Virus record (IMG/VR): IMGVR_UViG_3300006752_000251 | Span: 1 to 22,780 of that record | Length of the DNA: 22,780 nt | Reading direction: 5' to 3' (one strand) | Source: a virus | Part shown: positions 4,133-22,780 of the stretch, one piece after another | Layout: every line of letters begins with the position of its first letter | Numbering within the stretch: the first letter of the stretch is position 1 | Made by a program: the position numbers and the translations under genes | The notes under the pieces: model-generated | The model's database searches: none | Told to the model about the DNA's origin: nothing | The model's input: the letters and a program-made list of their open reading frames with translations, nothing else

Positions 4133-6418
4133 ATGGGAAAACTAATTAAAGAGTGGGTTAAGGGAATCTTAACTGAAGGAATAGAAAAAAAGGTAGTAGT
4201 TTACGCTGGTAGATTTCAACCTTTTCATAAAGGGCATAATGCCACTTACGAACATTTAGTGAAACAATTTGGTAGAGATAATGTTTATATTGGTACTTCT
4301 AATAAAACAGATAATTTAAAATCACCATTTAAGTTTAACGAAAAGAAAATGATTATGACAAAGATGTTTGGAGTTCCATCATCTAAGATTGTTCAAATCA
4401 AAAACCCATACGCTCCCAAAGAAATTATAGGTAAATTCAATAAAGATAAAACGGCATTTATTACTGTTGTTGGTGAAAAAGATAGATACAGATTAAAAGG
4501 TAAATACTTTGAACCATATCATCCTGATAAAATCCAAAAAGGATACGAAGAAAAGGGATATGTTTATGTAGCACCAGCTCAAAGTGGTGGGATTAGTGGA
4601 ACTGAAGTTAGAAAGTTATTATCATTTGGTAGTGATGATTCTAAAAAGAAAGGTTTCAAAAAAGCATATGATGGAAAGTTTAATCCAAAGATATATAAAT
4701 TTATAACAGATAGATTAGGTAAAATATCCACTAAGATGGAAAACTTTTTATCTACATTTGATTTTAATAAAATAATATCAGAAGGTAGTGCACTTTCAAC
4801 TACTAAAGGAACTGTTGATGATGGACCAGGTGCATATTATGGTAATTCAAAATCATATAAAGCGGTTGGAAAAGAAGCTGCAGAAAAATTAGGTTGGACT
4901 GTAGTTGATTATATATTAGGTACAGATGAAGAAACTATATATGATTTATTTGATGGTGGGATACCAGATAAATACCCAGTATCATATTTCCCATCAGGCG
5001 TTGCAGGTTTAGATGCACAATCACAAAGATATATTGATTTAAAAGGTTCACAGGCATATAAAGCTTGGGCAAAACATATTACAAAAGTAGCAACAATAGT
5101 AGGATATAAGTTAGTTGATTTCTTAGATGCTGAAAAATCTGTTGATAGTTCTAAAAATGAACCTCAGAAAGAAGAATCAGCAGAAAATATAATAAAAGAA
5201 GGATTGATTACCGAAGGTGGAGCATATGGACATATGGCTCACCCATTCGATACACAAATGAATCTAACATTTGGTGATTTAAAAACAATTATATCAAACG
5301 CATTAAATGGTAAGTTAGAATTCGCTAGAGAAAAAACAGATGGACAAGCACTTGCTATTAGTTGGAGAGATGATAAAGGTTTAATCGCCGCTCGTAATGG
5401 TGGACACCTAAAGAATAGTGGTGAAAACGCATTGGATATTAGTGGAGTAGCTTCTAAGTTTCAAGGTAGAGGTGGATTAACTGATGCATACAACTTCGCT
5501 ATGCAAGATTTATCTAAAGCAATCAAATCATTATCAAAAGCACAAAGAGATAAAGTATTCAATCAAGGTTCATCCTTTATGAATATAGAAGTTATATTCC
5601 CAACATCAGTAAATGTAATTCCTTATGGGCAACCTTTATTAGTATTCCACGGAACAATGCAATATAATATGGATGGGAAAGCAATTGGAGCTGATACATC
5701 AGCAGCAAGAATCTTAGCTGGGATGATTAAACAAATCAATCAAGATGTGCAAGATAATTATACAATACAAGGCCCACCTGTAGTTAATTTACCAAAATCG
5801 GAAGAACTTTCAAAGAAACAAGGTAAATACTATTCAGCACTAAACAAAATTCAAAAAGAATTTAAACTAAAAGATTCTAATGGTGTAGCTGATTATCATC
5901 AAGCATGGTGGGAACAATATGTTGATAAGAATTCACCATCTACATTAGATAACAAAACCAAAATGGGATTAGTTAAAAGATGGGCATTCTTTGATAACTC
6001 ATTCAGATTGAATAGAAAGAATATTACAGATTCTAAGGTATTAGATTGGGCAACCAAAACAGATAAGCAAGATAAAGCAAAAATATCTAAACAAAACCTT
6101 AGAAAGTTTGAAGATATATTCTTAGGTGTTGGTGCAGATGTACTTTCATTTATGAGTTCAGCACTTACAGTCAATCCTGATAAAGCACTTAGAACTATGA
6201 AATCAGAATTAGATAAGACTGTGAAAGCAGTTCAGAAAAGTGGTGATGTTAAGAAGATTGAAAAACTAAGAATGGAATTAGAACGATTAGCCGCAGTAGG
6301 TGGTAAAGATAAGATTGTACCAAATGAAGGAATCGTATTCACATACAAAGGTGGAACGTATAAATTAACTGGTACATTCGCATCATTAAATCAGATATTG
6401 GGATTAATGTACTTTTAA
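4133..6418 (+). CDS. NMN-adenylyltransferase-like / polynucleotide-ligase-like fusion, probable head cargo
   Basis: This 761-residue protein has three parts. Residues ~20-200 are a nucleotidyltransferase of the HxGH superfamily: GRFQPFHKGH (HKGH at 32-35) and ISGTEVR (154-160) match NadM-type NMN adenylyltransferases, which join NMN and ATP to make NAD+. Residues ~218-345 are unrecognised. Residues ~362-761 look like a covalent nucleotidyltransferase (DNA/RNA ligase superfamily): EKTDGQ (candidate motif I, Lys401), FMNIEVIFP (motif III, Glu486), NEGIVF (motif IV, Glu732) and TYKLTG (motif V, Lys744). A long helical insert lies between motifs III and IV. Candidate prohead-protease sites fall at domain borders: LTE15-G, ISE217-G, IKE356-G and LTE-like ITE361-G. 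The first closes a 15-residue amphipathic leader like a T4 capsid-targeting sequence. The adenylyltransferase call is firm, the ligase fold probable, the packaging inferred. Confidence 0.8.
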   Translation: MGKLIKEWVKGILTEGIEKKVVVYAGRFQPFHKGHNATYEHLVKQFGRDNVYIGTSNKTDNLKSPFKFNEKKMIMTKMFGVPSSKIVQIKNPYAPKEIIGKFNKDKTAFITVVGEKDRYRLKGKYFEPYHPDKIQKGYEEKGYVYVAPAQSGGISGTEVRKLLSFGSDDSKKKGFKKAYDGKFNPKIYKFITDRLGKISTKMENFLSTFDFNKIISEGSALSTTKGTVDDGPGAYYGNSKSYKAVGKEAAEKLGWTVVDYILGTDEETIYDLFDGGIPDKYPVSYFPSGVAGLDAQSQRYIDLKGSQAYKAWAKHITKVATIVGYKLVDFLDAEKSVDSSKNEPQKEESAENIIKEGLITEGGAYGHMAHPFDTQMNLTFGDLKTIISNALNGKLEFAREKTDGQALAISWRDDKGLIAARNGGHLKNSGENALDISGVASKFQGRGGLTDAYNFAMQDLSKAIKSLSKAQRDKVFNQGSSFMNIEVIFPTSVNVIPYGQPLLVFHGTMQYNMDGKAIGADTSAARILAGMIKQINQDVQDNYTIQGPPVVNLPKSEELSKKQGKYYSALNKIQKEFKLKDSNGVADYHQAWWEQYVDKNSPSTLDNKTKMGLVKRWAFFDNSFRLNRKNITDSKVLDWATKTDKQDKAKISKQNLRKFEDIFLGVGADVLSFMSSALTVNPDKALRTMKSELDKTVKAVQKSGDVKKIEKLRMELERLAAVGGKDKIVPNEGIVFTYKGGTYKLTGTFASLNQILGLMYF

Positions 6419-9740: not shown

Positions 9741-10337
9741 ATGAAAAAGTATTTCGGAGATATTAGGAATCTGATAATCTTAGTTTTAATAGTTGTTATA
9801 CTATTACTAAGACAATGTAGTGGAGATGGGGGAGAAATTACCCCATCCGAACCTACTATTATCACAAAGGTAGAAACGAAGTACGATACTATTACCAAAG
9901 AAGTTACAAAATACGTTCCTAAAATAGTTACTAGAATCAAAACTGAGATTGATACAATAACATTAACTCAAGATATTGATACACTTTCTATTTTAGAAGA
10001 TTACTTCGCAAAATATGTTTATGAAGATTTTCAACAACTAGATTCTTTAAACTTAACAATTAAAGATACAATCTCTCAGAACAAAATTTTATCAAGAAAA
10101 ATATTCTACGATTTAATTTACCCTACAACAACTGTAACGGAAACAAAGTATATTAACCAAAGAGAATTCTATGTAGGATTCGGTTTGAATGGAACATCAA
10201 AGCAATTTAATTACATTGGTGGTTCAATATTGTACAGAACACGAAAGAAACAGATGTTTGGACTAGGTTTAGGATTGAATGACCAATTTCAACCAATCAT
10301 ATCTACTCAGTTTCTTTGGAAATTGGGAAAGAAATGA
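9741..10337 (+). CDS. N-terminally membrane-anchored protein, possible spanin-like or envelope factor
   Basis: A hydrophobic span (LIILVLIVVILLL, residues ~11-23) is followed by RQCSG. The Cys lacks a proper lipobox, so a lipoprotein is unlikely. The next ~100 residues are rich in Thr/Ile/Lys/Asp with heptad-like repeats (TKVETKYDTITKEVTKYVPK), suggesting an extended rod. The last ~60 residues are beta-like with alternating aromatic and Gly positions (EFYVGFGLNG, FGLGLGLND), as in a small beta sheet or outer-membrane contact region. The 198-residue layout of anchor, rod and terminal beta part would suit a protein spanning the periplasm. Its TGA overlaps the terminase ATG as ATGA, so the two are probably translationally coupled. 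Function is inferred only. Confidence 0.68.
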   Translation: MKKYFGDIRNLIILVLIVVILLLRQCSGDGGEITPSEPTIITKVETKYDTITKEVTKYVPKIVTRIKTEIDTITLTQDIDTLSILEDYFAKYVYEDFQQLDSLNLTIKDTISQNKILSRKIFYDLIYPTTTVTETKYINQREFYVGFGLNGTSKQFNYIGGSILYRTRKKQMFGLGLGLNDQFQPIISTQFLWKLGKK

Positions 10338-18623: not shown

Positions 18624-18651
18624 AAAGGTTTGGTAATTCCAAACCTTTTTT
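18624..18651 (+). terminator. Strong intrinsic terminator
   Basis: A perfect 10-bp stem, AAAGGTTTGG (18624-18633) with CCAAACCTTT (18639-18648), encloses the loop TAATT and runs into six T (18646-18651). It ends the core-protease-polyprotein unit and sits immediately before the methyltransferase gene. A T-run on the upstream side means it may also work weakly in the other direction. Confidence 0.88.
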
Positions 18652-18665
18652 GTATATTAGACATT
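18652..18665 (+). promoter_or_regulatory. Candidate short-leader promoter region for the methyltransferase
   Basis: Only 14 bases separate the terminator from the ATG at 18666, with no Shine-Dalgarno. TTTTTTGTATATT (18646-18658) is identical to 11925-11937, where it also precedes a gene without a Shine-Dalgarno. A promoter overlapping the terminator is possible; so is read-through with leaderless-type initiation. Confidence 0.3.
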
Positions 18666-19988
18666 ATGAGTGGATTTTTATCAATATTAGATACAAGAAA
18701 GAAGGAATGGCAATCCCGCAAGAGTTGGTGGATACAAAAGTATGGCATACAATCCGAACTTGGTAGAGAAGATACTATATCATATTCTAAATTTTGGGAT
18801 GATGTCACTGTATCTATATTTGATGCTAAATTGTGTGAAGATATATACACCTCATTCATACCACCAAGTGGTTCAGTTCTTGACCCATTCGCAGGTGGTT
18901 CAGTTAGAGGTATTGTTGCTGAAGAGTTAGGGTTTGACTACACTGGTATTGAGTTATCACAAGAACAAGTCAATGCTAATGAACTACAATCTAATAAACC
19001 TACTTGGATATGTGGAGATAGTGATGAAATATTAGACAACTTAGATACTCAGTACGATTTGGTATTTACCTGCCCACCATATCACGACTTAGAAATATAT
19101 TCAGATAATACAAACGACCTATCGAATATGGATTGGGATGGGTTTCTTATCAAATACAAGTCAATCATACAAAAGTCATACGATAAACTAAAAGATAATA
19201 GGTTCTTTATTGTAGTGGTGACTGAGATACGAGATAGAATGACCACTGGTGATTATAAGATTGGTAAGTATAAGGGATTTGTTCCATCTACTATTCAGAT
19301 TGCCGAAGAATGTGGGTTTCATTACTATAATGATGTTGTATTGATAAACCCATCTCAGCAATCGGGGAGAATGTCTAATGTATATTTTAATCGTAATAGG
19401 AAAGTAGCATCAACTCATCAGAATGTTTTGATGTTTGTAAAAGGAAACCCAGACCTTGCAACTGAAGATATTCAATGGGATGGGACATATGTTTGTGAGA
19501 TAGATGGTAAGAAGTATAAATCATTTAGAGAAGCTGCAATAGATATTGACCCAAATAGATTAGTTGCATCTGAAATACAACGTAGATGTAAATCAACTAA
19601 ATACAAATATAAAAATTGGAATGTAATTGGTGTTGATAAGCAACCTGATATAAAATTTGAAATCGATGGTGTGTTATTTCAATCTATATCTCAAATAGCC
19701 AAATTACTTGATAATGTAAGTGAAACTAATGCTAGAACTTGGACAGACTCAAACTCTAAAAATTGGAGTCATTGGAAGCGTGTATCTCCAAACGATTATG
19801 ATGTATCTTATACTGATATGGAAAAAACTTGGAATAACCCAATTCGACTTGAACTAAATACAATCAAATGTGAGGGTGTTGAGTTTACAACAATAAAAAA
19901 AGCAGCAGAGTATTTCAATTTGTCATCTGAACGTGTACGGCAAAAGATACTTTCTGATAAATATGATGATTATACTTATCTTAATTAA
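18666..19988 (+). CDS. DNA methyltransferase (N6-adenine/N4-cytosine type) with three NUMOD-like repeats
   Basis: The protein transfers a methyl group from S-adenosylmethionine to an amino group on DNA. VLDPFAGGSVRG (D73-P-F) is the cofactor motif and FTCPPYH (134-140) the catalytic (S/T/D)PPY-type motif. Motif I before motif IV, about 60 residues apart, gives a gamma-like order. NQNVLMFVKGNP-type sequence closes the catalytic domain near residue 265. The C-terminal third holds three related ~45-residue units, at about 274-318, 328-372 and 398-440, each with a short strand, (I/V)-(D/E)-G, an aromatic, then a helical segment such as SFREAAIDID, SISQIAKLLD or TIKKAAEYFN. This resembles the NUMOD helix-turn-helix repeats of homing endonucleases and may read the DNA target. 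The start is ATG 18666; the TTG at 18630 lies in the terminator. It may protect phage DNA from host restriction. Confidence 0.9.
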   Translation: MSGFLSILDTRKKEWQSRKSWWIQKYGIQSELGREDTISYSKFWDDVTVSIFDAKLCEDIYTSFIPPSGSVLDPFAGGSVRGIVAEELGFDYTGIELSQEQVNANELQSNKPTWICGDSDEILDNLDTQYDLVFTCPPYHDLEIYSDNTNDLSNMDWDGFLIKYKSIIQKSYDKLKDNRFFIVVVTEIRDRMTTGDYKIGKYKGFVPSTIQIAEECGFHYYNDVVLINPSQQSGRMSNVYFNRNRKVASTHQNVLMFVKGNPDLATEDIQWDGTYVCEIDGKKYKSFREAAIDIDPNRLVASEIQRRCKSTKYKYKNWNVIGVDKQPDIKFEIDGVLFQSISQIAKLLDNVSETNARTWTDSNSKNWSHWKRVSPNDYDVSYTDMEKTWNNPIRLELNTIKCEGVEFTTIKKAAEYFNLSSERVRQKILSDKYDDYTYLN

Positions 19989-19998
19989 ATTTATTTTG

Positions 19999-20007
19999 AT
20001 ATTTATA
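19999..20007 (+). promoter_or_regulatory. ATATTTATA junction motif
   Basis: ATATTTATA follows the methyltransferase stop by ten bases and touches the 5' arm of the next hairpin. It matches the motif at the other junctions of this window. Confidence 0.3.
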
Positions 20008-20045
20008 TACACCTATCATTAACAATGTGGTAGGTGTATTTTTTT
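20007..20045 (+). terminator. Intrinsic terminator after the methyltransferase
   Basis: ATACACCTA (20007-20015) pairs with TAGGTGTAT (20031-20039), and an inner CATT/AATG pairing can close the loop. Seven T (20039-20045) follow. It separates the methyltransferase from the bS21-like gene, so that gene either has its own promoter (TATAAACA at 20045-20052 is one base off the T4 late octamer) or depends on read-through. Confidence 0.8.
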
Positions 20046-20066: not shown

Positions 20067-20333
20067 ATGAACGATAACGAAAAGAAGTTTAAAAGACCTT
20101 ACAAAAAAGTTAGAAGAGAGGATATGGAAGTACCAGGAAACTCAATGGCAGTTAAGGTTGTAAATGGTAACATAGAATTAGCACTCAAAGCTTTCAAAAG
20201 AAAAATTAAAGATAGTGGTAAGATGGATGAGGTTAAAGCCCGAAAAGAATATATCAAACCATCAGCTATCAAACGTAAACAAAAAGCAGATGCGATTCGA
20301 GCCCAATGGCGAAGAAATCAATTCGAAAATTAA
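20067..20333 (+). CDS. rpsU: Phage-encoded ribosomal protein bS21 homologue
   Basis: The C-terminal ~60 residues have the bS21 pattern: MAVKVVNGNIELALKAFKRK (a beta strand, then a basic helix), DSGKMDEVKARKEYIKPS with the conserved E-x-x-x-(R/K)-(R/K)-x-(F/Y)-x-KPS-type segment, and a Lys/Arg-rich terminal helix (IKRKQKADAIRAQWRR). In bacteria bS21 sits by the anti-Shine-Dalgarno end of 16S rRNA and aids initiation; phage versions are known from marine myoviruses. Three starts are possible. ATG 20067 adds a basic 26-residue extension (88 residues total, no Shine-Dalgarno). ATG 20124 has GAGAGG too close. ATG 20145 has AGGAA at 20135-20139 and gives a normal-length 62-residue bS21. The gene stands alone between two hairpins, downstream of the methyltransferase. 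It may bias host ribosomes toward phage messages. Confidence 0.82.
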   Translation: MNDNEKKFKRPYKKVRREDMEVPGNSMAVKVVNGNIELALKAFKRKIKDSGKMDEVKARKEYIKPSAIKRKQKADAIRAQWRRNQFEN

Positions 20334-20338
20334 ATAGT

Positions 20339-20358
20339 AAACACTTTTTTAGTGTTTT
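20339..20358 (+). terminator. Weak hairpin terminator after the bS21-like gene
   Basis: AAACACT (20339-20345) pairs with AGTGTTT (20351-20357) around a TTTTT loop, but only a short T stretch follows. It lies five bases after the stop. It is less convincing than the two hairpins upstream. Confidence 0.5.
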
Positions 20359-20423
20359 CAATAATACTACACTATTTATTGTAGAAAAAATATCGGCTTC
20401 CAATAGTCGATTAAATTTATTTT

Positions 20424-20431
20424 TATAAATA
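20424..20431 (+). promoter_or_regulatory. T4-type late promoter for scaffold and capsid genes
   Basis: TATAAATA is an exact match to the T4 late promoter octamer, in the correct direction, 56 bases before the scaffold ATG. Transcription would start about 10 bases downstream, near 20440, just at the leader hairpin. This is the only exact match in this orientation that I found in an intergenic gap here, in front of the genes that need the highest expression. Confidence 0.6.
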
Positions 20432-20439
20432 ATATCTAT

Positions 20440-20459
20440 TAAGATTCTCAATAATCTTA
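20440..20459 (+). promoter_or_regulatory. 5'-leader hairpin of the scaffold-capsid mRNA
   Basis: TAAGATT (20440-20446) pairs with AATCTTA (20453-20459) over a CTCAAT loop. If transcription begins near 20440 the stem would form the very 5' end of the message, where it could slow decay. A good ribosome binding site follows (AGGAG, 20476-20480, seven bases before ATG). Confidence 0.45.
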
Positions 20460-20487
20460 TTTCCAAAAACAATTTAGGAGAACAATT

Positions 20488-21534
20488 ATGGCAAATAGAA
20501 AAGATTTGTTATCTGAAGCTATCGCTGATGCTAAAGCCGTTAAAGAAACTGCACTAGCAAACGCTAAATTAGCCTTAGAAGAAGCGTTCACCCCAAAACT
20601 ACAATCAATGATTTCTGCAAAATTAGCTGAAGAAGCTGATGAGGAAGAGATGGATGAAGATTTAGATTCAACAGATTTAGGTTCAAGCGATAACGCAGAA
20701 CCAAATGATGGTGCATCTGATTCATCTGATATCGAAAACGATGATGAATTGACTGAAGAAGAAGGTGAAGAGCACAACGAAGAAGAAGAAGTTAAAGAAG
20801 AAGAAGAAGAAATGAAATCTGAAGAAGAGGACATGGAAGAATCTGAAGAAGAAGCTACTGATGAAACTTATGAATCTGAAGAAGAAGTATCTGAAGAAGA
20901 TATGGAAGATGAAGAAGAAGAAGATGATTTAGATTTAGAATCTGTAATCGCTGAATTAGAAGCTGAAATGGCTGAAGAAGAGGACATGGAAGAATCTGAA
21001 GAAGAAGCTACTGATGAAACTTATGAATCTGAAGAAGAAGCTGTTGCTGAAGAAGATGACATGGATGAAGAAGAAGAAATCGACTTAGACGAAGTTATTA
21101 AAACTTTGAAAGAGATGGAAGAATCTGATGACATGGAAGAATCTGAAGAAGAAGCAAACGAAGAAGAAGAAGTAGAAGAAAATGATGAGTTAGAAGAAGC
21201 TTACTTAACAATTGAAAGTTTACAAAAAACTATCAATGAAGTTAATTTACTTAACGCTAAGTTACTTTACACTAACAAATTATTCAGAACTTTTGACTTA
21301 AACGAAAACCAAAAGGTAAAAGTTTTAGAAAACTTCGATAGAACTTCATCAGTAAGAGAAGTGAAATTAGTATTCTCAACTTTAGCAGAAAACTTAAACG
21401 TTGCTAAAAAGAAAAGAACTGTTGTAAAAGAAGGATATGCCTCAAAAGCAACAAAGAGTTCTGCACCGAAGAAAATAATTTCTGAGGGTAACGATATGGC
21501 CGCTAGATGGAAAAAACTAGCAGGTTTAAAATAA
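20488..21534 (+). CDS. 22: Prohead core scaffolding protein (gp22-like), highly acidic
   Basis: The 348-residue protein sits directly before the capsid gene, as T4 gene 22 does. It would form the core on which the capsid assembles and be degraded by the gp21-like protease. It opens with ANRKDLLSE10-AIADAKAV, a helix with a gp21-type site. Residues ~45-235 are extremely acidic, with a duplicated EDMEESEEEATDETYESEEE unit. The C-terminal ~115 residues are ordered and helical: EEAYLTIESLQKTINEVNLL, NAKLLYTNKLFRTFDLNENQ, then a segment ending FSTLAENLNV. Further candidate cuts are VKE-GY and ISE-GND near the end. A basic patch (KKKRTVV) and ARWKKLAGLK close the protein. The acidic body is much expanded relative to what I would expect of gp22; identity rests on position, composition and the C-terminal region. 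Confidence 0.88.
   Translation: MANRKDLLSEAIADAKAVKETALANAKLALEEAFTPKLQSMISAKLAEEADEEEMDEDLDSTDLGSSDNAEPNDGASDSSDIENDDELTEEEGEEHNEEEEVKEEEEEMKSEEEDMEESEEEATDETYESEEEVSEEDMEDEEEEDDLDLESVIAELEAEMAEEEDMEESEEEATDETYESEEEAVAEEDDMDEEEEIDLDEVIKTLKEMEESDDMEESEEEANEEEEVEENDELEEAYLTIESLQKTINEVNLLNAKLLYTNKLFRTFDLNENQKVKVLENFDRTSSVREVKLVFSTLAENLNVAKKKRTVVKEGYASKATKSSAPKKIISEGNDMAARWKKLAGLK
20819..20887 (+). repeat. 69-bp direct repeat in scaffold gene, copy 1
   Basis: Identical over 69 bases to 20972-21040, in the same frame, 153 bases (51 codons) apart. It codes the acidic EDMEESEEEATDETYESEEE unit. A shorter third copy (GACATGGAAGAATCTGAAG and onward) lies at about 21130-21155. Confidence 0.9.
20972..21040 (+). 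repeat. 69-bp direct repeat in scaffold gene, copy 2
   Basis: Second perfect copy of 20819-20887. Identity at synonymous positions indicates a recent in-frame duplication, or repeated recombination or slippage in the GAA-rich tract. Confidence 0.9.
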
Positions 21535-21562
21535 TTAATAAGATTAATAACGGAGAAAAAAA

Positions 21563-22780
21563 ATGGATTTAAAAAACATTTTAAATGAAGGTTCTTCTCA
21601 CACCGCAAGACTATCTGAAGCTACAAGAGCTTTAGCTGGTAAGTGGGAAAAAACCGGTCTTTTAGAAGGTATTGACAACGAAGTTGAAAAAGCTGGTGTT
21701 GCAACACTTTTAGAAAACCAAGCAAGACAATTAGTAAAAGAGGCTTCTTCTACTGGTACTTCTGCAAATTCAGAAGAGTGGGCTGGTGTAGCTCTACCAT
21801 TGGTAAGAAGAATTTTTAGTGAAATCGTAGCAAAGGATTTCGTATCTGTACAACCAATGAACTTACCATCAGGTCTAGTATTTTATCTAGATTTCAAATA
21901 TGGTACAGGTCAAGCTGGATTTGCAACAGGTAGTGGTAAAGATTCACAAGCTGATTCTGTATTTGGTATTACTGATACATCAAATGACCCATCAGGTGGT
22001 TTATATGGTGCTGGTAGATTCGGATACTCTATCAACGATAACACATCTGCTACTCAAACATTAGGAGATGCAGCTGCATCTAATGTATTCTTAACATCAT
22101 CTGTATCTTTAGCAGACGTGAACTATGATACTCAATTTACTGCATCTAATGGTGCTGCTATTTTAGCAGGTACTATATGTAAAGTTGCTGTACCAAAAGC
22201 TTCTATCGCTGGATATGATGACAAAGGAATCAGAGGATTTAGAATTGAAGGTTCTGAGATTACAGATAACTACCCACAATTTACTGTAGAGAGTGGTGAT
22301 GATATCGTATTCGTAGTAAAAACTTCAGGATTCAACGCAAGTGGTGATGCTGATGAAGTTGTGGTAAAATATCACAAACAACCAACTGATATTTCAAGAG
22401 GTGACTTCGAAGCAACAGGAACTCAATTAACTTCTAACCCAGAAGCTGATATCGATATTCCTGAATTGAATGTTGAAATGAAGAGTTTACCAATTGTTGC
22501 TAAGACACGTAAGTTGAAAGCACAATGGACTCCTGAATTCGCACAAGATTTAAATGCATATCACTCAATTGATGCAGAAGCTGAATTAACTTCTATGTTA
22601 TCTGAATACGTTTCGCAAGAAATAGATTTAGAACTTTTAGATATGTTAATCCAGAATGCTCAAACAACTGATAGATGGTCAGCAAGAGTTGGATATGAAT
22701 GGAATGCAGGAAGTGCTGCATTTGATCAATCTAATGCAACTGCTCAAGCATACAACCAAGGAACTTGGTTCCAAACTTTA
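21563..22780 (+). CDS. 23: Major capsid protein (gp23-like), 3'-truncated
   Basis: The frame is open from ATG 21563 to the window edge (406 codons). GGAG at 21552-21555 supports the start. Conserved gp23 stretches are clear: TLLENQARQLVKEASS, PLVRRIFSEIVAKDFVSVQP, MNLPSGLVFYLDFKYG, TRKLKAQWTPEFAQDLNAYH followed by SIDAEAELTSMLSEYVSQEI. The N-terminal peptide is removed in T4 after residue 65; here LVKE60-A61 is the best equivalent. LKNILNE9-G and RLSE19-A are extra candidate sites within the leader. The first nine residues resemble the internal leaders of the 722-residue polyprotein. The protein forms the hexameric capsid lattice. Coupled with the scaffold gene, only 28 bases upstream, it is probably driven by the late promoter at 20424. 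Confidence 0.97.
   Translation, partial: MDLKNILNEGSSHTARLSEATRALAGKWEKTGLLEGIDNEVEKAGVATLLENQARQLVKEASSTGTSANSEEWAGVALPLVRRIFSEIVAKDFVSVQPMNLPSGLVFYLDFKYGTGQAGFATGSGKDSQADSVFGITDTSNDPSGGLYGAGRFGYSINDNTSATQTLGDAAASNVFLTSSVSLADVNYDTQFTASNGAAILAGTICKVAVPKASIAGYDDKGIRGFRIEGSEITDNYPQFTVESGDDIVFVVKTSGFNASGDADEVVVKYHKQPTDISRGDFEATGTQLTSNPEADIDIPELNVEMKSLPIVAKTRKLKAQWTPEFAQDLNAYHSIDAEAELTSMLSEYVSQEIDLELLDMLIQNAQTTDRWSARVGYEWNAGSAAFDQSNATAQAYNQGTWFQTL

Follow-up and report, generated by a model that had tools for sequence, protein, structure and literature searches.

An N-terminally extended bS21 homologue in a T4-like phage lineage and Shine-Dalgarno use by its late genes

Of all ribosomal proteins, phages carry bS21 most often, and the reason is a standing question, which we approach here through one such gene in a T4-like phage. 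An earlier note on this DNA had suggested that the phage protein might change which messages are favoured late in infection. The window, by which we mean the whole stretch of DNA that was analysed, is a 22.8-kb contig in which the bS21 gene adjoins the capsid and packaging genes: terminase, portal and protease lie upstream, and scaffold (so called from its position, with no family match) and capsid lie downstream. By capsid and TerL identity, the closest named phages are the Microcystis phage Mel-JY01 (58% and 57%, respectively) and the Flavobacterium phage immuto (51% and 56%).

Rfam and tRNA searches of the window gave no matches. Directly upstream of bS21, positions 18630-19988 encode a DNA methyltransferase with C-terminal NUMOD1/I-TevI-like DNA-binding stretches, the latter matching below curated cut-offs. 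The product of 4133-6418 has an N-terminal nucleotidyltransferase-like domain and, further on, a KTDG stretch resembling a nucleic acid ligase motif.

Identity and start of the bS21 gene

Judged by its profile matches and predicted fold, the gene encodes a genuine bS21, as the earlier note had proposed. The reading frame at 20067-20333 on the plus strand specifies 88 amino acids and a stop (coding part 20067-20330). A Pfam profile search matched it to PF01165, Ribosomal_S21 (5.9e-12, 45.6 bits against a cut-off of 27), covering positions 2-54 of the 55 in the family profile, and it also matched PHROG 21469 (ribosomal protein S21). The bS21-like helices on which the identification depended are present in the AlphaFold model, at residues 36-50, 52-58 and 65-87, and the confidence of the model is good beyond roughly residue 20. 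The KPS motif (residues 64-66) falls between the N- and C-terminal helices. The PDB fold matches for the predicted structure were bS21 chains only, both weak.

20067-20333, plus strand: bS21 homologue (PF01165) with conserved extension, starting at the first ATG, no Shine-Dalgarno (SD)
20067-20144, plus strand: basic extension of 26 aa at the N-terminus; conserved motif (R/K)(E/D)xMx(I/V)PG
20298-20309, plus strand: R78 (position of Bacteroidia Tyr54) to W81, by ungapped alignment to 7jil_z

A later in-frame ATG at 20145, preceded by AGGAA, had been put forward as the start that gives a protein of normal length, with a 26-residue extension if the first ATG is used instead. The AGGAA (20135-20139) and the length of the extension are both as described, but most relatives have Leu, Thr, Ala or Lys in place of the Met encoded at 20145. 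A start there with AGGAA as its SD is ruled out by this lack of conservation, and because the Met is not conserved we read AGGAA as part of Pro-Gly-Asn codons. In aligned relatives the first ATG opens the reading frame and the basic extension is retained, and on this comparative evidence the first ATG is the true start. The extension, with its "PG" motif (KKVRREDMxIPG), is kept in about 60 distinct viral relatives, among which G24 is almost invariant. AlphaFold models it mostly as coil at low to fair confidence, with pLDDT climbing from 53 to 83 along its length. Extensions of at least 10 residues occur in 52 of the 67 distinct phage bS21 examined.

The other distinctive site is near the C-terminus. 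Arg78 aligns with Tyr54 of Flavobacterium johnsoniae bS21 (chain 7jil_z) and a Trp follows three residues further, so that the window protein has no Bacteroidia-type Tyr at position 54. Arg is the usual residue here in the window clade, with Tyr in a minority sub-clade. The distant bS21 relatives L167, L169, L177, L180 and L188 also carry a C-terminal tail (e.g. WTMIIDGKAK).

Promoter and hairpins of the bS21 unit

The gene sits in a short unit bounded by hairpins, as had been noticed earlier: one is at 20007-20039 (z -5.5), and a second fold lies within 20330-20440 (z -4.3).

19999-20007, plus strand: ATATTTATA, core of the late-type promoter that serves bS21; unchanged in all 15 aligned leaders
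20007-20039, plus strand: hairpin plus T-run where the bS21 mRNA is predicted to begin, -16.5 kcal/mol
20392-20411, plus strand: terminator-like hairpin 3' of bS21 (2 found in the region, 0.3 expected)

The word ATATTTAT is among the most over-represented upstream of genes in the clade (41 found, 4.1 expected) and also precedes five further genes in the window, at distances of 12-51 nt. We infer that the ATATTTATA promoter is late because it has no -35 box and resembles the T4 sequence TATAAATA.

The 33-nt hairpin directly after the ATATTTAT site at 19999 is more stable than the fold behind any other ATATTTAT[A/T] site, in the window and in the relative genomes examined. It appears to be under selection, since stem changes in relatives are compensatory (A-T, G-C, C-G and T-A at one position). 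In L142 and L144 it is either degenerate or not there at all, and distant relatives lack it, so it cannot be a constant feature of bS21 genes of this kind. Possible roles are a terminator against read-through or a 5' stabiliser. The arms pair CACCU with AGGUG, the letters of part of the anti-Shine-Dalgarno (ASD) and its complement; L152 and L154 differ at the outer pair, and the resemblance may be a coincidence.

Shine-Dalgarno use by gene class and lineage

Good SDs on the scaffold and capsid genes, also pointed out in the earlier note, hold across the whole clade.

20476-20480, plus strand: AGGAG SD of the scaffold gene (20488-21534), with an SD in 10 of 10 unique leaders of relatives
21552-21555, plus strand: GGAG SD of the gene for the major capsid protein (21563-22780, truncated where the window stops)

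Ahead of the capsid gene, an SD is present in all 34 unique leaders of the window lineage and in 13 of 13 among Mel-JY01 relatives; the count is 0 of 18 among relatives of immuto, which itself has no bS21, and 0 of 5 in phages with a Tyr54-type bS21. Window-type bS21 messages are themselves SD-less (42 of 43 unique leaders), while Mel-like bS21 leaders mostly carry an SD.

With early and late classes inferred from promoter type and start codons set by the promoter, SDs were found in 10 of 99 genes behind early promoters (10%; shuffle expectation 6%) and in 52 of 142 behind late promoters (37%; expectation 5%; late versus early p=2e-6). Late genes of the control phages had SDs in 1 of 22 and 0 of 9 cases, and the Tyr54-type phages and immuto had almost none in either promoter class. 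An energy count gave a similar picture: 6% of genes behind TTTGG-N19-TAnnTT reach -6 kcal/mol or below, and their mean of -1.3 is weaker than the average of internal codons (about -2.8), while 34% of genes behind ATATTTATA have SDs. In four genomes outside motif discovery, early-gene SDs were weaker than those of all other genes (p=3e-8).

Our main reading, to which we give a probability of about 45%, is that, late in infection, the phage bS21 may make SD-blind ribosomes of the Bacteroidota type use SDs. The preference for late messages anticipated in the earlier note is upheld in part, by comparative genomics only: SDs concentrate on late genes, are universal on capsid genes and are absent in the bS21-less sister phages.

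Across lineages, we scored SD use by comparing ASD-pairing energies at gene starts with those at internal Met codons. By this score most of the window clade uses SDs, as does Mel-JY01, and immuto avoids them. The 111 bS21 loci fall into two classes, one Tyr54-type, without extension and SD-avoiding, the other extended, mostly Arg54 and SD-using. When the 67 distinct proteins are split by extension length, the genes around those extended by 10 residues or more use SDs (mean -2.2 kcal/mol), whereas the genes around the others on average avoid them (+1.0; p=1.5e-6, uncorrected for relatedness). Of the 28 immuto-like contigs that include TerL as well as capsid, none has a bS21 in the stretch retrieved and all avoid SDs; all 25 Mel-like contigs with a detected bS21 use them. 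Three contigs with TerL 52-53% identical to that of Mel-JY01 (L345-L347) avoid SDs and have no bS21 in the part available.

How many evolutionary events these patterns represent is limited by the TerL tree. The Tyr54-type phages form a distant clade, and the base joining the SD-using bS21 carriers to the bS21-less immuto clade is not resolved, so the changes that can be counted as independent are few; the window-type members are one phage lineage, and there are roughly one to three independent contrasts. There are also exceptions. The sub-clade L016-L019 and L130-L135 has Tyr at position 54 and still some SD use, L182 and L183 use SDs without an extension, and L176, in the window lineage (bS21 at 10001-10207), has Arg54, no extension and little SD use. 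Tyr or Phe in SD-using phages, together with the Arg of L176, rules out residue 54 as sole determinant. The few contrasts and these exceptions count against the late shift to SD use that we favour. The scarcity of contrasts would suit a very improbable alternative, in which the late AGGAG motifs are read by another phage factor or are a composition effect and the link to bS21 is an accident of shared ancestry; L176 has a bS21 and little SD use, as that alternative allows. It sits poorly with the motif itself, which fits the ASD in position (-10 to -7) and sequence and occurs in late leaders about sevenfold above composition-shuffled expectation.

Host and a candidate late switch

If ribosomes are shifted to SD use, the host should normally ignore SDs. 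A search of a bacterial genome collection with the bS21 returned two weak Clostridia matches and no close cellular relative. In the window clade TTG-N20-TATATT shows a spacing peak (81 against a background of 24, sd 5), which is shared by the Tyr54-type loci and Flavobacterium phage immuto and not by the Pelagibacter phage. This spacing, together with the SD-less early leaders, suggests but does not prove Bacteroidota-type hosts. Sigma-70 promoters (TTG-N20-TATAAT) are not enriched in the window clade, nor are classic Bacteroidota TAnnTTTG promoters, which are strong only in Mel-JY01.

The host could instead be SD-competent, for example a Bacteroidota relative outside the class Bacteroidia, with a host-like phage bS21 that tops up ribosomes and late SDs that are simply normal strong initiation signals. 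Bacteroidia are said to be the only bacteria with Tyr54 (PMC9976891); a phage protein without it would fit another host, as would the lack of a close cellular relative and the exceptions to the residue-54 rule. We nevertheless consider such a host unlikely, if a serious contender: the early genes avoid SDs and have A-rich leaders, as in Flavobacterium, and the promoter type is common to a Flavobacterium phage. Moreover, SDs are present on the early genes of T4, whose E. coli host uses them, and avoiding them early is thus not a rule among T4-like phages.

The shift to SD use that we favour would begin with a probable Bacteroidota-type host whose ribosomes keep the ASD hidden. Early phage genes, with A-rich, SD-less leaders, would be accepted by these unmodified ribosomes. 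The late promoter would then drive the bS21 message, which, being SD-less, should itself be translatable by unmodified ribosomes, and the phage paralogue would take the place of host bS21 on the 30S platform. There the basic extension, together with the usual absence of Tyr54, which guides the 16S 3' tail to its pocket, might free the ASD, so that capsid, scaffold and protease messages with AGGAG-type SDs would initiate well. Homology, start, extension, promoter motif, hairpin, the early/late SD contrast and the sister-phage contrast come from data; host, incorporation into ribosomes, ASD release and the order of events are conjectural steps. We hold the fuller version tentatively and at somewhat less than even odds: a temporal programme of SD-less early and SD-led capsid genes in which the extension displaces the 16S 3' tail from the bS21-bS18-bS6 pocket. 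Phage bS18, another pocket protein, was not found in the ten genomes examined.

There is precedent for the central step. In F. johnsoniae, Tyr54 of bS21 is stacked against A1534 and seems to direct the 16S tail to the pocket, and SD messages are translated more when the residue is changed (Y54A) or bS21 is depleted (PMC9976891). Two published observations speak against the switch: F. johnsoniae requires an extended SD (PMC9976891) and the phage SDs here are short, and the sole biochemically tested phage bS21, that of HTVC008M, left E. coli ribosomes largely inactive (PMC6375957). An improbable alternative has the phage protein merely keeping ribosomes replete late in infection, as host bS21 is lost or diluted, with message choice unchanged. 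That bS21 is loosely bound and exchangeable (PMC6375957), and that the Tyr54-type bS21 of other phages looks host-like (PMC9723584), would agree with it; it leaves unexplained why SDs occur in divergent, mostly N-extended bS21 lineages, and mainly on late genes.

A late translational switch by phage bS21 has been proposed before (PMC9723584, PMC6375957). For lake phages with inferred Bacteroidetes hosts, Chen et al. (2022; PMC9723584) observed late bS21 expression and proposed such a switch. As here, bS21 lies beside terminase, portal, protease and capsid genes. Tyr54 is present in 54 of their 61 phage bS21, with an aromatic residue in the rest, and these proteins may work like host bS21 (PMC9723584). 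Those phages have Tyr54 or a nearby aromatic residue and bS21 on the opposite strand, whereas the window type has it on the same strand, N-extended, mostly with Arg54 and with late SDs. We compared the clades with Tyr54-type loci retrieved here as stand-ins for the published genomes, and on that basis the window falls outside the Chen-type clade: TerL is 24-27% identical, and the Tyr54-type loci form a separate clade, have no N-extension and avoid SDs.

In the bS21 autoregulation of F. johnsoniae (McNutt et al. 2023, PMC9976891), bS21 composition sets SD-message translation, as we infer for the phage. There only rpsU has a strong SD, whereas in window-type phages the bS21 message is SD-less and the capsid messages carry SDs. 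The bS21 of Pelagibacter phage HTVC008M (Mizuno et al. 2019, PMC6375957) is likewise phage-encoded and was shown to enter E. coli ribosomes; unlike the window protein it has no N-extension, its host is Pelagibacter, and the phage itself uses SDs. Immuto differs from the window in having neither bS21 nor SDs. The phage bS21 is of a known kind and its context, with N-extension, usual Arg54 and late-gene SDs, is new; we found no report linking phage bS21 to late-gene SDs, in a literature search of incomplete coverage. What the context adds is a signature that spans the genome and can be tested: how SD use divides among gene classes. This signature tracks one kind of phage bS21 and is absent in bS21-less sister phages. 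If the reading is true, we would have an example from nature of a virus that makes specialised ribosomes, and the rule by which these choose messages could be read from sequence.

In Mel-JY01 the extension of bS21 is short; the phage is SD-using, and most of its relatives have an SD on the bS21 gene as well. In its genome (PP395634.1; L033, L070-L072) we counted 20 intergenic TTG-N17-21-TAnnTTTG promoters against 0.7 expected. Because these promoters are of the Bacteroidota sigma type, the true host of this phage, filed as a Microcystis phage, may be a Bacteroidota bacterium in the culture.
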